Positions 19,120 to 23,487 of a stretch of DNA of 64,000 nucleotides are shown one piece after another. Numbering within the stretch: the first letter of the stretch is position 1; every line of letters starts with the position of its first letter. The translations under genes and the position numbers were made by a program. The notes beneath the pieces were generated by a model, which saw only the letters and a list, made by a program, of their open reading frames with translations, was not told where the DNA came from and made no database searches. The stretch spans positions 1-64,000 of the forward strand of contig NZ_LANI01000029.1 in assembly GCF_000982415.1 (NCBI RefSeq), in the 5' to 3' direction. This DNA comes from Kiloniella litopenaei. GTDB taxonomy: Bacteria > Pseudomonadota > Alphaproteobacteria > Kiloniellales > Kiloniellaceae.

Positions 19120-19148
19120 TTGACACCCCGAAAACTTTAGCATACCAA
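19120..19148 (+). promoter_or_regulatory. Possible sigma-70-type promoter for the riboswitch-nrdAB transcript
   Basis: TTGACA at 19120-19125 is a perfect -35 match. After a 17-base spacer comes TACCAA (19143-19148), a poor -10. Its position about 15 bases before the aptamer fits, but the weak -10 keeps confidence low. Confidence 0.3.
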
Positions 19149-19157
19149 ATATAGATA

Positions 19158-19340
19158 TCGAGGTTCTTTCGAAATCCATTCGAAAGCTAAGAGGGAATTC
19201 GGTGAGCGATACAATCGCAATCCCGAAGCTGCCCCCGCAACTGTAAGCAGTTAGCAACTGTCGCGTATGCCACTGATGTCATTTTTACATTGGGAAGGCG
19301 GACACAAGCATTGATCTGCAAGCCAGGAGACCTGCCCCGA
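19158..19340 (+). ncRNA. Cobalamin (B12) riboswitch aptamer
   Basis: The conserved landmarks occur in the right order: AAGAGGGAATTCGGTG (19188-19204), then CCGAAGCTGCCCCCGCAACTG, then GCCACTG at 19269-19275 with GGGAAGGCGG (19292-19301), and finally the B12 box GCCAGGAGACCTGCC (19322-19336). Together these define an adenosylcobalamin-type aptamer. It lies in the leader of nrdAB, a B12-independent ribonucleotide reductase. In known cases this arrangement switches class I RNR off when B12 is available for a class II enzyme. Confidence 0.93.
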
Positions 19341-19364
19341 TAAAAGTCAATTCCGCGGGCGGGG
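19331..19364 (+). promoter_or_regulatory. Alternative helix of the riboswitch expression platform
   Basis: CCTGCCCC (19331-19338), whose first six bases are the end of the B12 box, can pair over all 8 positions (one G-U) with GGGCGGGG (19357-19364). This pairing and the ligand-bound aptamer fold exclude each other, so this is a good candidate for the switching helix. Seen by eye; no folding was run. Confidence 0.5.
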
Positions 19365-19423
19365 TGCTCCGATGGTGTTGCAGGCAGCATGAACCATCCT
19401 TTCATGTTCTCCGCAAATCATTT

Positions 19424-19453
19424 GGCCCTGTCCACTCATAGACAAAAAGGGTC
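19424..19453 (+). promoter_or_regulatory. Hairpin that may mask the nrdA ribosome binding site
   Basis: GGCCC-TGTC (19424-19432) can pair with GACA-(AAAA)-GGGTC (19441-19453). The right arm contains the only Shine-Dalgarno-like bases (AAAAAGGG) before the nrdA ATG at 19459. This suggests that translation initiation is what the riboswitch controls. Confidence 0.4.
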
Positions 19454-19458
19454 AATTT

Positions 19459-22323
19459 ATGTCTCTCATAGAAGCAAACGCATTACCGGGTGAGGTAATT
19501 CCAGACACCCCTGACAATACTCTGACAACTTCAGGCCTTACAACTTTAGGCACAGACTACAAAGTAATACGCCGCAACGGAACGGTTTCCCCCTTTGAAC
19601 CAGAAAAGATAACATCGGCTATTACCAAGGCCTTTATCGCAACGGAGGGGTCAAATGCCGCGGCTTCCCCTCGTGTTCATGAAACGATTTACGCACTTTC
19701 AAAAGAAATCACCAAGTCCCTCACACGCCGGGGCATATCCGGACGCACCTTTCACATTGAAGACATTCAAGATCAGGTAGAACTGGCATTAATGCGCGGA
19801 GGCCATCAGAAAATCGCACGGGCGTATGTTCTTTACCGGGAAGAACGCAACAAAAGCCGCCAAGCTGAAACCAGCGTCCAACCTGTGGCAAGGCAACAAA
19901 TCAAAATCACCCAAGAAGATGGAACAGAGATCGACCTGGACCAAGGGCGTCTGGAGACCATCATTACTGAAGCTTGCGCAGGGTTGGAGAACACGTCAAA
20001 AGAGAAAATTTTATCTGAAACCGAGCGCAATATTTATGATGGCATCAGCTCCGCAGAACTAGCACTCGCACCAATACTCGCAGCAAGAACCCTAATCGAA
20101 ACAGAACCCGATTACAGCTATGTTTCAGCAAGACTTTTGCTGGATAAACTTAGAACAGAAGTTCTGTCATTCATATTTGAACAAAATCAAACCGCAACCC
20201 AGGACGAAGTTGCCGTAATTTACCCTGATTATTTTCAGGCTTATGTGAAGAAGGGTATAGAAGCAGAACTGTTGGACCCCGAGCTGGGTCGATATGACCT
20301 AAAGCGTTTGGCCGGTGCAATTAAGCCGGAACGGGACACACTCTTTCAGTATCTGGGGCTGCAAACACTCTACGATCGCTATTTTCTTCATCTCAATGAA
20401 AATCGAATAGAGCTACCACAAGCGTTTTTTATGCGTGTTGCAATGGGCCTAGCCCTTCGCGAGACGGACCGGGAAGAAAAAACTATCGAGTTTTACAATC
20501 TTCTATCTTCTTTTGATTTCATGTGTTCAACACCGACACTCTTTAATTCAGGGACACGTCACCCCCAACTATCATCATGCTTCTTAACAACTGTCCCTGA
20601 TGATCTGGGATCCATCTTCAAATCAATAAAAGACAATGCATTATTGGCAAAATATTCTGGGGGTCTGGGAAATGACTGGACACCGGTACGTGGCCTCGGG
20701 GCCCATATCAAAGGGACCAATGGTGAAAGCCAGGGTGTTGTTCCTTTTTTAAAGGTTGCTAATGATACCGCCATTGCTGTGAACCAGGGTGGAAAACGCA
20801 AAGGAGCAGTTTGCGCCTATCTGGAAACGTGGCACCTTGATATCGAAGAATTCCTGGACTTAAGAAAAAATACCGGGGATGACCGACGCAGAACCCATGA
20901 TATGAATACCGCAAACTGGGTTCCTGATCTTTTTATGCAACGTGTCAAAGAAGACGCTGCATGGACACTCTTTTCCCCTGACGAAACCCCGGACCTGCAC
21001 AATCTCTATGGCCGGGATTTTCAGCAAGCCTATGAAAATTACGAAACCAAGGCAAAAAACGGGGACTTGAGAACACATAAAAAAGTTCGTGCGCTCGATC
21101 TTTGGCGGCGCATGTTAACCATGCTGTTCGAAACCGGACACCCCTGGATCACTTTCAAGGATCCTTGCAACATAAGATCGCCACAAAACCATGTCGGCGT
21201 TGTGCATTCATCGAATCTTTGTACAGAAATCACACTTAATACCTCTAGCGAAGAGGTCGCAGTTTGTAATTTGGGGTCTATAAATCTTGCAGCTCACACA
21301 AACAGTTCTGGCATAGACCATGACAAGCTGGAAAGAACAACAAAGACCGCAATGCGTATGCTCGACAACGTTATCGACATCAACTTTTACACGATTCCCG
21401 AAGCCCGCAAGTCAAACCTGAGGCACCGTCCGGTTGGTCTTGGCTTAATGGGTTTTCAGGATGCATTGCAAAAACAGCGAATTCCCTATTGCTCGGAAGC
21501 AGCAATAACCTTCGCAGACGAAAGTATGGAAGCAATATCCTTTCACACAATAACAGCATCAACCGATCTTGCAGAGGAAAGAGGAAGCTATACCAGCTTT
21601 AAAGGATCTTTGTGGTCAAAAGGTATCTTGCCCATAGATTCCATGGCGCTTTTAAAAGAGCAGCGAAACAATCTTGATTACGACGCCAGTAGCAAACTTG
21701 ATTGGAACAAACTGAGAAAACGCGTCAAGAAAGTAGGAATGCGCAATTCAAATACAATGGCAATTGCCCCTACAGCGACCATTTCAAACATCTGTGGCGT
21801 TTCACAGTCAATTGAACCCGCTTATCAGAATCTCTTTGTTAAATCCAACATGTCCGGCGAATTTACCGTCGTAAATGCCGCATTGGTCAATGACCTTAAA
21901 AGCATCGACTTGTGGGACGATGTCATGATTTCTGATCTGAAATACTATGATGGCAGTATCGGGGAAATCGACCGCATCCCTCAAGACATTAAAGCTTTGT
22001 ATGCAACTGCTTTTGAGATTGATTCCAGCTTCTTGATCGAAGCCGCAGCACGAAGGCAAAAATGGATTGATCAGGCGCAATCCTTAAATCTGTATCTGGC
22101 AAACCCCAGCGGCAAAGCGCTTGATTCCCTATACCAGCTTGCGTGGGAGCGTGGGTTAAAGACCACCTATTACCTACGGTCAAAGTCAGCAACTCATGTT
22201 GAAAAATCAACACTTAAAGGCACTGACGGCAAACTGAATGCTGTTGCGACAAATATGGTTGCTCCAATAAGTGGGCCTCAGATTTGTTCAATCGATGATC
22301 CAGAATGCGAAGCCTGCCAATAG
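19459..22323 (+). CDS. nrdA: Class I ribonucleoside-diphosphate reductase, alpha subunit (double ATP-cone)
   Basis: 954 residues. Two N-terminal ATP-cone domains (about 34-125, YKVIRRNGTVSPFEPEKI, and about 145-235, KITQEDGTEIDLDQGRLE) give allosteric activity control. The catalytic barrel follows. Cys374 (SSCFLT) and Cys603 (VAVCNLGS) are the redox pair, and Cys588 in SSNLCTE is the thiyl-radical cysteine. Asn and Glu partners are in NLC-x-E. The C-terminal shuttle pair is Cys950/Cys953 (CEACQ). It reduces ribonucleotides to deoxyribonucleotides with NrdB, encoded 36 bases downstream. Expression is probably repressed by cobalamin through the leader riboswitch. Confidence 0.96.
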   Translation: MSLIEANALPGEVIPDTPDNTLTTSGLTTLGTDYKVIRRNGTVSPFEPEKITSAITKAFIATEGSNAAASPRVHETIYALSKEITKSLTRRGISGRTFHIEDIQDQVELALMRGGHQKIARAYVLYREERNKSRQAETSVQPVARQQIKITQEDGTEIDLDQGRLETIITEACAGLENTSKEKILSETERNIYDGISSAELALAPILAARTLIETEPDYSYVSARLLLDKLRTEVLSFIFEQNQTATQDEVAVIYPDYFQAYVKKGIEAELLDPELGRYDLKRLAGAIKPERDTLFQYLGLQTLYDRYFLHLNENRIELPQAFFMRVAMGLALRETDREEKTIEFYNLLSSFDFMCSTPTLFNSGTRHPQLSSCFLTTVPDDLGSIFKSIKDNALLAKYSGGLGNDWTPVRGLGAHIKGTNGESQGVVPFLKVANDTAIAVNQGGKRKGAVCAYLETWHLDIEEFLDLRKNTGDDRRRTHDMNTANWVPDLFMQRVKEDAAWTLFSPDETPDLHNLYGRDFQQAYENYETKAKNGDLRTHKKVRALDLWRRMLTMLFETGHPWITFKDPCNIRSPQNHVGVVHSSNLCTEITLNTSSEEVAVCNLGSINLAAHTNSSGIDHDKLERTTKTAMRMLDNVIDINFYTIPEARKSNLRHRPVGLGLMGFQDALQKQRIPYCSEAAITFADESMEAISFHTITASTDLAEERGSYTSFKGSLWSKGILPIDSMALLKEQRNNLDYDASSKLDWNKLRKRVKKVGMRNSNTMAIAPTATISNICGVSQSIEPAYQNLFVKSNMSGEFTVVNAALVNDLKSIDLWDDVMISDLKYYDGSIGEIDRIPQDIKALYATAFEIDSSFLIEAAARRQKWIDQAQSLNLYLANPSGKALDSLYQLAWERGLKTTYYLRSKSATHVEKSTLKGTDGKLNAVATNMVAPISGPQICSIDDPECEACQ

Positions 22324-22359: not shown

Positions 22360-23487
22360 ATGCTTGATTGGTCCGAACCAACAACCAAATCAAATGCGCA
22401 ACAGCCCCTTTCCCCCACACCATCGCCTGTCGCTGATGCAAGTGGCTTGGGAGATATTGATCGAGGCGCCGCACGTGTCTCGGTTGATGACAAGTCAATG
22501 ATTAATGCCCGTGCAGATGTAAACCAACTATTACCGATGAAATATCACTGGGCATGGGAAAAGTATCTCGCTGGCTGCAACAACCACTGGATGCCAACCG
22601 AAGTATCAATGCAGGCCGACATTGCGCTGTGGAAATCCCAAGACGGCTTAACCCCGGATGAGCGCAAGATGCTAAAAAGAAACCTTGGTTTTTTTGCAGC
22701 ATCTGAATCGCTGGTTGCCAACAATATCGTTCTGGCAATTTACCGCCACCTGACCAATCCCGAATGCCGTCAGTATCTATTACGACAGGCTTTTGAGGAA
22801 GCAGTTCACACGCATACATTTCAGTATATCGTCGAAAGCCTTGGCCTTGAAGAAGGTGAGCTTTTTAATATGTACCGCGAAGTACCATCCATCACCGACA
22901 AAGCCGCATGGGCATTGAAGTATACCCAGAGTCTTGATGACCCAAATTTCAAGACAGGAACTCCCGAAGCGGATCAGGCATTCCTGAGAGATCTAATCGC
23001 TTTTTATGTCGTATTTGAAGGAATGTGGTTCTACACAGGATTTGCACAAATCCTGTCTTTGGGACGTCGCAATAAAATGGTCGGTATTGCCGAGCAATAT
23101 CAATACATTCTTCGCGATGAAAGCATTCATCTAAACTTCGGCATTGATGTTATTAATCAAATCAAGGCCGAAAACCCGCATCTTTGGACAACGGAATTCC
23201 AGCAGGAAGTAAAGGGGATGTTAAAAGAAGCAGCCGAAATCGAGGCCGCTTATGGCAGGGATACGATGCCCAAGGGATTGTTGGGCCTCAACGCTCATCT
23301 CTGCGAGCAATACATGCACTTTATCGCCAACCGCAGATGCGGACAACTTGGCCTGGAACAGGTTTATCCGACAACAGAAAACCCTTTCCCCTGGATGTCA
23401 GAAACCATGGACCTGAAAAAGGAAAAAAACTTCTTTGAAACCAGAGTTATCGAATACCAGAATGGTGGTGCATTAAGCTGGGATTAA
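22360..23487 (+). CDS. nrdB: Ribonucleotide reductase beta subunit, class Ic-like (no radical tyrosine)
   Basis: 375 residues with AGGA upstream of ATG 22360. Dimetal ligands can be read directly: Glu116 ([10 protein letters not shown]), Glu147 and His150 ([10 protein letters not shown]), Glu220 (FEGMWFY), Glu254 and His257 (RDESIHLNF). The residue four after His150, which is the radical Tyr122 in E. coli NrdB, is Phe154 (codon TTT). The first ligand is Glu, not Asp. Both features, and the spacings 31-3-4 and 73-34-3, agree with the Chlamydia class Ic protein, which uses a Mn(IV)/Fe(III) cofactor. The C-terminal Tyr in VIEYQNGG is kept for radical transfer. It partners NrdA. Confidence 0.93.

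Follow-up and report, generated by a model that had tools for sequence, protein, structure and literature searches.

Which metal centre serves deoxynucleotide synthesis in Kiloniella litopenaei, and when is the enzyme made? The question is raised by a nrdAB pair in the window, i.e., the 64,000 nucleotides of contig NZ_LANI01000029.1 (positions 1 to 64,000) analysed here. In this stretch nrdB (22360..23487, + strand) encodes, in an uninterrupted frame of 375 aa, a class I R2 subunit with the class Ic residues Glu116 and Phe154, as identified by residue reading, phmmer alignment and a profile match. The initial annotation had placed Phe154 at the site of the radical Tyr and Glu116 as the first metal ligand, followed by Glu147, His150, Glu220, Glu254 and His257. 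All seven residues were read at these positions and align with the R2 of Chlamydia trachomatis (4d8f/1syy, 453 bits), which has the same Glu and Phe. A radical Tyr at a shifted position did not appear, NrdB aligning unshifted both to this protein and to 6y2n (682 bits), which likewise carries the Glu/Phe pair. In the alignment to the Chlamydia R2, NrdB further retains Trp77, Tyr249, Asp253 and Tyr366, which we take to be the places of the Chlamydia radical-path residues; the numbering by which NrdB sites are matched to those of E. coli and Chlamydia (e.g., Tyr122 of E. coli) gives presumed equivalents in the same sense. NrdB therefore shows the residue marks of class Ic: Phe replaces the radical Tyr, Glu replaces Asp in the first ligand position, and the five other ligands are present together with the Trp, Tyr and Asp of the radical path. 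The mark of classes Ia and Ib, a radical Tyr with an Asp ligand, is absent, F154 and E116 standing in its place. PMC8463856 gives the Phe/Glu pair as a mark of class Ic. Assignment of NrdB to class Ic is supported by these residues, and because R2 has them we infer that it most likely holds a Mn(IV)/Fe(III) centre rather than a tyrosyl radical.

Across 110 aligned R2 proteins, the positions equivalent to 116 and 154 are E/F in 82, D/Y in 26 and E/Y in 2, and never D/F; given this pattern, the Glu/Phe pair in NrdB is no chance occurrence. Upstream of nrdB lies nrdA (19459..22323, + strand), encoding the class I catalytic subunit (Pfam PF02867 and PF00317; NCBIfam NF005544, 1676 bits). The two ATP cones previously ascribed to this cognate NrdA were recovered as two PF03477 matches. 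Also present in NrdA are cysteines 374, 588 and 603, two adjacent tyrosines (904/905) and cysteines near the C terminus; we assume for them the roles of their E. coli counterparts. In comparison with a same-genus relative, nrdB differs by 165 synonymous and 20 nonsynonymous codons and nrdA by 392 and 118, respectively. Since synonymous differences outnumber nonsynonymous ones, both are maintained as working genes.

The same residues might, alternatively, hold another metal pair (Fe/Fe or Mn/Mn) in a Phe/Glu group that arose apart from Chlamydia, a reading we consider improbable. It draws on the R2 tree, which was built from 58 of the 110 aligned rows with the two trait columns masked; the alignment itself left out 30 rows (chosen near-duplicates and L062), and long branches were present, that of Chlamydia within the tree and that of a phage row, which was left out of it. 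In this tree Phe/Glu sequences form two groups, one of Chlamydia and haloarchaea and one containing K. litopenaei, with Tyr/Asp rows between them, and a single joint Phe/Glu group appears in 2% of 200 bootstrap trees. Moreover, the enzyme characterised as Mn/Fe is that of Chlamydia, in the other Phe/Glu group, which counts against our preferred explanation. The closest solved structure, 6y2n, has the same Glu/Phe pair as NrdB and is the R2 of Saccharopolyspora erythraea, an actinomycete, for which the accessible part of PMC7467353 gives no metal assignment; a literature search on the S. erythraea enzyme and manganese returned nothing relevant. However, an AU test does not reject a single Phe/Glu clade (p 0.217), positions 116 and 154 have changed together (D/F in 0 of 110, E/Y in 2), and the remaining ligands and path residues match those of Chlamydia. 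The class Ic branch position expected from the initial annotation is thus not clearly borne out: the K. litopenaei group lies apart from Chlamydia on the masked tree, but the AU test does not reject one clade. A firm claim of two origins was dropped on account of that test. Ic-like and Ia-like sequences are noted to occur together in one cluster (PMC8463856) and class Ic has been reported from haloarchaea (PMC3019208). A Mn(IV)/Fe(III) centre remains our preferred assignment for NrdB.

The conditions under which the enzyme is made are suggested by the region ahead of nrdA. A cobalamin (B12) riboswitch aptamer (Rfam RF00174) occupies 19144..19353 on the + strand, where cmscan scores it at 124.9 bits (E 9.2e-32) against a gathering score of 31.5, and its 3' end lies 105 nt upstream of the nrdA start. 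The intervening leader (19354..19458, + strand) is a probable expression platform, a function suggested by RNA folds and an alignment of 29 leaders. Directly after the aptamer, the G-rich element GGGCGGGG (19357-19364) can pair in RNA folding with a C-rich arm (19425-19433), which alternatively pairs with the ribosome-binding site (19448-19453). The leader fold has a z of -2.12, with 4 of 200 shuffles equally stable. Thirty-six riboswitch-bearing leaders were folded and 29 aligned, omitting L060, L061, L072, L083, L085, L090 and L119; for L060 and L061 the automatically chosen start codon in folding looks wrong. Across those 29 aligned leaders the arms next to the start codon hardly vary, so that their covariation is little informative. 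A terminator scan of the nrdA leader found no terminator-like site and a sigma-70 scan of it no site. NrdR is present in the genome; with a 16-base NrdR-box consensus and up to 3 mismatches allowed, the 64-kb window contained one match, far from nrdA and at chance level. L5-L13 kissing-loop coupling is known for the cobalamin riboswitch class, according to PMC9600662.

These features suggest that B12 would close the ribosome-binding site, that control of nrdA would be translational rather than transcriptional, and, by analogy with the direction usual for B12-independent isozymes, that expression would be off with ligand. A riboswitch acting in the opposite direction or on transcription, with no B12 shut-off at the ribosome-binding site, seems to us rather unlikely. 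Its main argument is that folding of the ribosome site fails to separate loci with a riboswitch from those without; it is set against the leader lacking a terminator-like site, the C-rich and G-rich arms beside the start codon that are conserved in 29 leaders, and reports, in PMC4991794 and PMC9600662, that cobalamin riboswitches on B12-independent isozymes repress. Pairing of the ribosome site was also considered as a marker of riboswitch control and rejected, being high in most riboswitch loci and also in many loci without one. Repression of nrdA translation by B12 is the reading carried forward below.

The source genome (G000; 4.3 Mb in 85 contigs) contains a single R2 gene and also encodes a B12-dependent class II reductase, NrdJ, of 1218 aa (NCBIfam, 2224 bits against a cut-off of 1737). 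A genome search for a class III reductase gene found none, and neither did one for a manganese importer of the Nramp type, the latter a point against a manganese-using enzyme. Seven PF00590 genes are present, five of them clustered on one contig in what is probably a B12 synthesis pathway. In a whole-genome search, six cobalamin riboswitches were detected including that of nrdA; the other five precede an ABC transporter ATPase, a MATE transporter, a DUF4198 gene followed by CbiM, a second DUF4198 gene, and a glycine betaine monooxygenase-like gene. At locus L010 (1501-3217), a cobalamin riboswitch lies about 560 nt ahead of a MATE transporter gene. Glycine betaine monooxygenase-like genes follow a cobalamin riboswitch both in the source genome (L012, 1890-3137) and in Afifella (L063, 7111-8409), with scores just or well under the NCBIfam cut-off. 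A riboswitch before class I nrdAB and an NrdJ are therefore found in one genome, as in the pair of Streptomyces coelicolor, and nrdAB is not the only reductase of K. litopenaei. The initial proposal that the organism makes its deoxynucleotides with a manganese/iron enzyme is supported as far as the class Ic residues go, but takes no account of NrdJ or of the cobalamin riboswitch ahead of nrdAB. Most likely, nrdAB would be a B12-independent reserve that is off under B12 while NrdJ works.

The distribution of nrdAB marks it as accessory in the genus and order. Among 61 genomes of the order, R2 proteins above the NF005550 cut-off occur only in the source genome and in one of the same genus (G333), which keeps the nrdA riboswitch at 125.2 bits (cmscan) in a stretch of 79% DNA identity. 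The other seven same-genus genomes have no R2, and six of the seven have NrdJ; the remaining one (G332) shows neither. G332 is listed as 100% complete, yet R2, NrdA and NrdJ are all missing from it, pointing to an assembly gap or an unusual enzyme. R2 proteins elsewhere in the order share 28–31% identity with NrdB and have Tyr/Asp in all 28 read. In an even sample of the class, nrdA exceeded the NF005544 cut-off in 2 of 289 genomes, the second (G267) being an alphaproteobacterium of another family with the same layout, i.e., a riboswitch before nrdA (123.6 bits) and NrdJ. R2 proteins of small-genome members of the class (L023, 4252-5241; L024) pair the first-ligand Glu with Tyr at 28–29% identity to NrdB; a Glu and Tyr pairing is described for class Id in PMC8463856.

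Recurrence of the layout was followed in the 80 top-scoring relatives out of 410 or more, a sample weighted to close kin, of which 72 have Glu/Phe and 8 Asp/Tyr. Sixty-nine of the 72 Glu/Phe loci were usable for the nrdA start (L062 and L067 are cut and L114 has no nrdA beside nrdB), and among these best relatives a riboswitch lies just upstream of nrdA in 50 of the 69, recognised by cmscan in 31 and by nhmmer alone in 19. Riboswitch-positive loci span Pseudomonadota, Actinomycetota, Acidobacteriota and Vulcanimicrobiota. In the 6 Asp/Tyr loci where the start of nrdA could be seen, a riboswitch was found in none, although four of these genomes have NrdJ. The gene for the B12-independent methionine synthase, metE, occurs within the fetched stretch of 9 of the 72 Glu/Phe loci; seven copies have a cobalamin riboswitch of their own, and in the remaining two the start of the gene lies beyond the end of the locus. 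A Methylocella plasmid carries both nrdAB and metE, each behind a riboswitch.

Several loci in this survey differ in other respects. On a Phyllobacterium plasmid (L197, 7473-11249), metH, the B12-dependent methionine synthase gene, lies downstream of class Ic nrdAB, opposite to the metE neighbours. A contig filed as viral (L051, 2307-6607) bears class Ic nrdAB with a riboswitch and is close to Aquamicrobium; it may be host DNA. Three plasmids (L055, L190 and L192) have Tyr/Asp nrdB, with nrdA absent from the fetched stretch. In Nocardiopsis halophila (L092, 1849-5421) and Actinosynnema (L110, 2022-5477), class Ic nrdA has an in-frame insert after ...VNQ that looks like an intein, with a Cys start and a His-Asn end.

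NrdJ was found in 45 of 49 genomes with the riboswitch compared with 12 of 19 without (Fisher p 0.008, or 0.028 if L111, whose NrdJ lies in broken pieces and was scored present, is counted as absent). These counts are based on TIGR02504 matches, from which class I NrdA matches, which on their own can reach some 416 bits (cut-off 399.95), were removed by hand, and exclude the L087 genome. A test corrected for relatedness had 5 supported pairs and gave no significance, and the link between riboswitch and NrdJ is thus only suggestive. Five genomes run counter to it, having a riboswitch with no NrdJ found: L057, L116, L082 and L094 (both partial MAGs), and G333 of the same genus, the assembly of which is 97% complete in 440 contigs. 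L079 (2150-2600) has no NrdJ and no aptamer match; short matches to relatives flank the expected aptamer site, and the region looks like a decayed riboswitch.

A different account would make nrdAB a general aerobic reductase, its class Ic residues serving mainly under oxidative stress or iron shortage and its riboswitch being minor or a relic. The initial annotation ascribed tolerance of oxidative conditions to such an enzyme, and in the sample of 80 top-scoring relatives 19 of the 69 Glu/Phe loci, all of them examined with cmscan, lack the riboswitch, 12 of those genomes having NrdJ. However, the nrdA riboswitch is intact in K. litopenaei and still scores 125.2 bits in G333 despite 79% DNA identity, and seven of the nine same-genus genomes live without the nrdAB enzyme. 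Such a general role appears to have a low probability.

We therefore favour, as probable on the whole, an explanation in which nrdAB is a B12-independent class Ic partner of the class II NrdJ under control of a B12 riboswitch. Plentiful adenosylcobalamin would bind the riboswitch in the nrdA leader and shut the ribosome-binding site, NrdJ then supplying deoxynucleotides. When B12 or its cobalt is scarce, the G-rich element would pair with the C-rich arm, the ribosome-binding site would be freed and the Mn/Fe-type enzyme would be produced. The residues, riboswitch, NrdJ, gene order and recurrence that enter this explanation are read directly from the DNA. A bolder version, which we hold only tentatively and regard as rather doubtful, is that the B12 riboswitch exchanges a reductase that uses cobalt, in B12, for one that uses manganese and iron, that this Phe/Glu branch lost the radical Tyr independently of Chlamydia, and that the genes form a mobile B12-independence kit crossing phyla, plasmids included, sometimes beside metE. 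What began as a residue-level guess about metals becomes a testable idea at the level of the cell, namely that vitamin B12 supply sets the metal of DNA precursor synthesis. Class Ic, best studied in an obligate pathogen, would gain a role in free-living bacteria, for which many culturable hosts are named here. Should the Phe/Glu pair have two origins, a comparison of both groups with the Tyr/Asp sequences lying between them would reveal how the radical tyrosine can be lost from an R2.

Among known systems, the class Ic R2 of C. trachomatis (1syy, 4d8f, 4m1i) resembles NrdB in its Phe at the Tyr site, its Glu as first ligand and the places of its other ligands and path residues. It differs in its score (453 bits versus 682 for 6y2n) and in its separate Phe/Glu group on the tree, and C. 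trachomatis, unlike the source genome, is listed with nrdR, nrdA and nrdB and no NrdJ in the accessible part of Lundin et al. (PMC3019208). The same source describes haloarchaeal class Ic nrdAB with a Phe/Glu R2, often in genomes with NrdJ; these R2 proteins, however, share 51–54% identity with NrdB and group with Chlamydia. With regard to regulation, metE under a cobalamin riboswitch beside metH is, according to PMC9600662, a comparable B12-independent isozyme repressed by B12; it differs in serving methionine synthesis, and metE was not seen beside nrdAB of K. litopenaei. A regulatory precedent is S. coelicolor, where, according to PMC4991794, a cobalamin riboswitch likewise precedes the class I operon in a genome with NrdJ, adenosylcobalamin controls nrdABS through it, and NrdJ is the main enzyme. 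That nrdABS, unlike nrdAB here, is called class Ia in the same text. In a sample of the genus Streptomyces that did not include S. coelicolor, R2 proteins in 40 of 41 genomes searched share 33–37% identity with NrdB; a class Ic identity of nrdABS was rejected for this sample, 11 of 11 R2 proteins read being Tyr/Asp. A survey of B12 regulons by Rodionov et al. 2003 is said to list riboswitches before nrdAB. For Streptomyces, regulation of a class I enzyme by a B12 riboswitch has already been reported, and our literature search, partial in its coverage, found none linked to class Ic. The class Ic signature of K. litopenaei is in itself ordinary; of more interest is where it occurs, in a second reductase that B12 probably controls.
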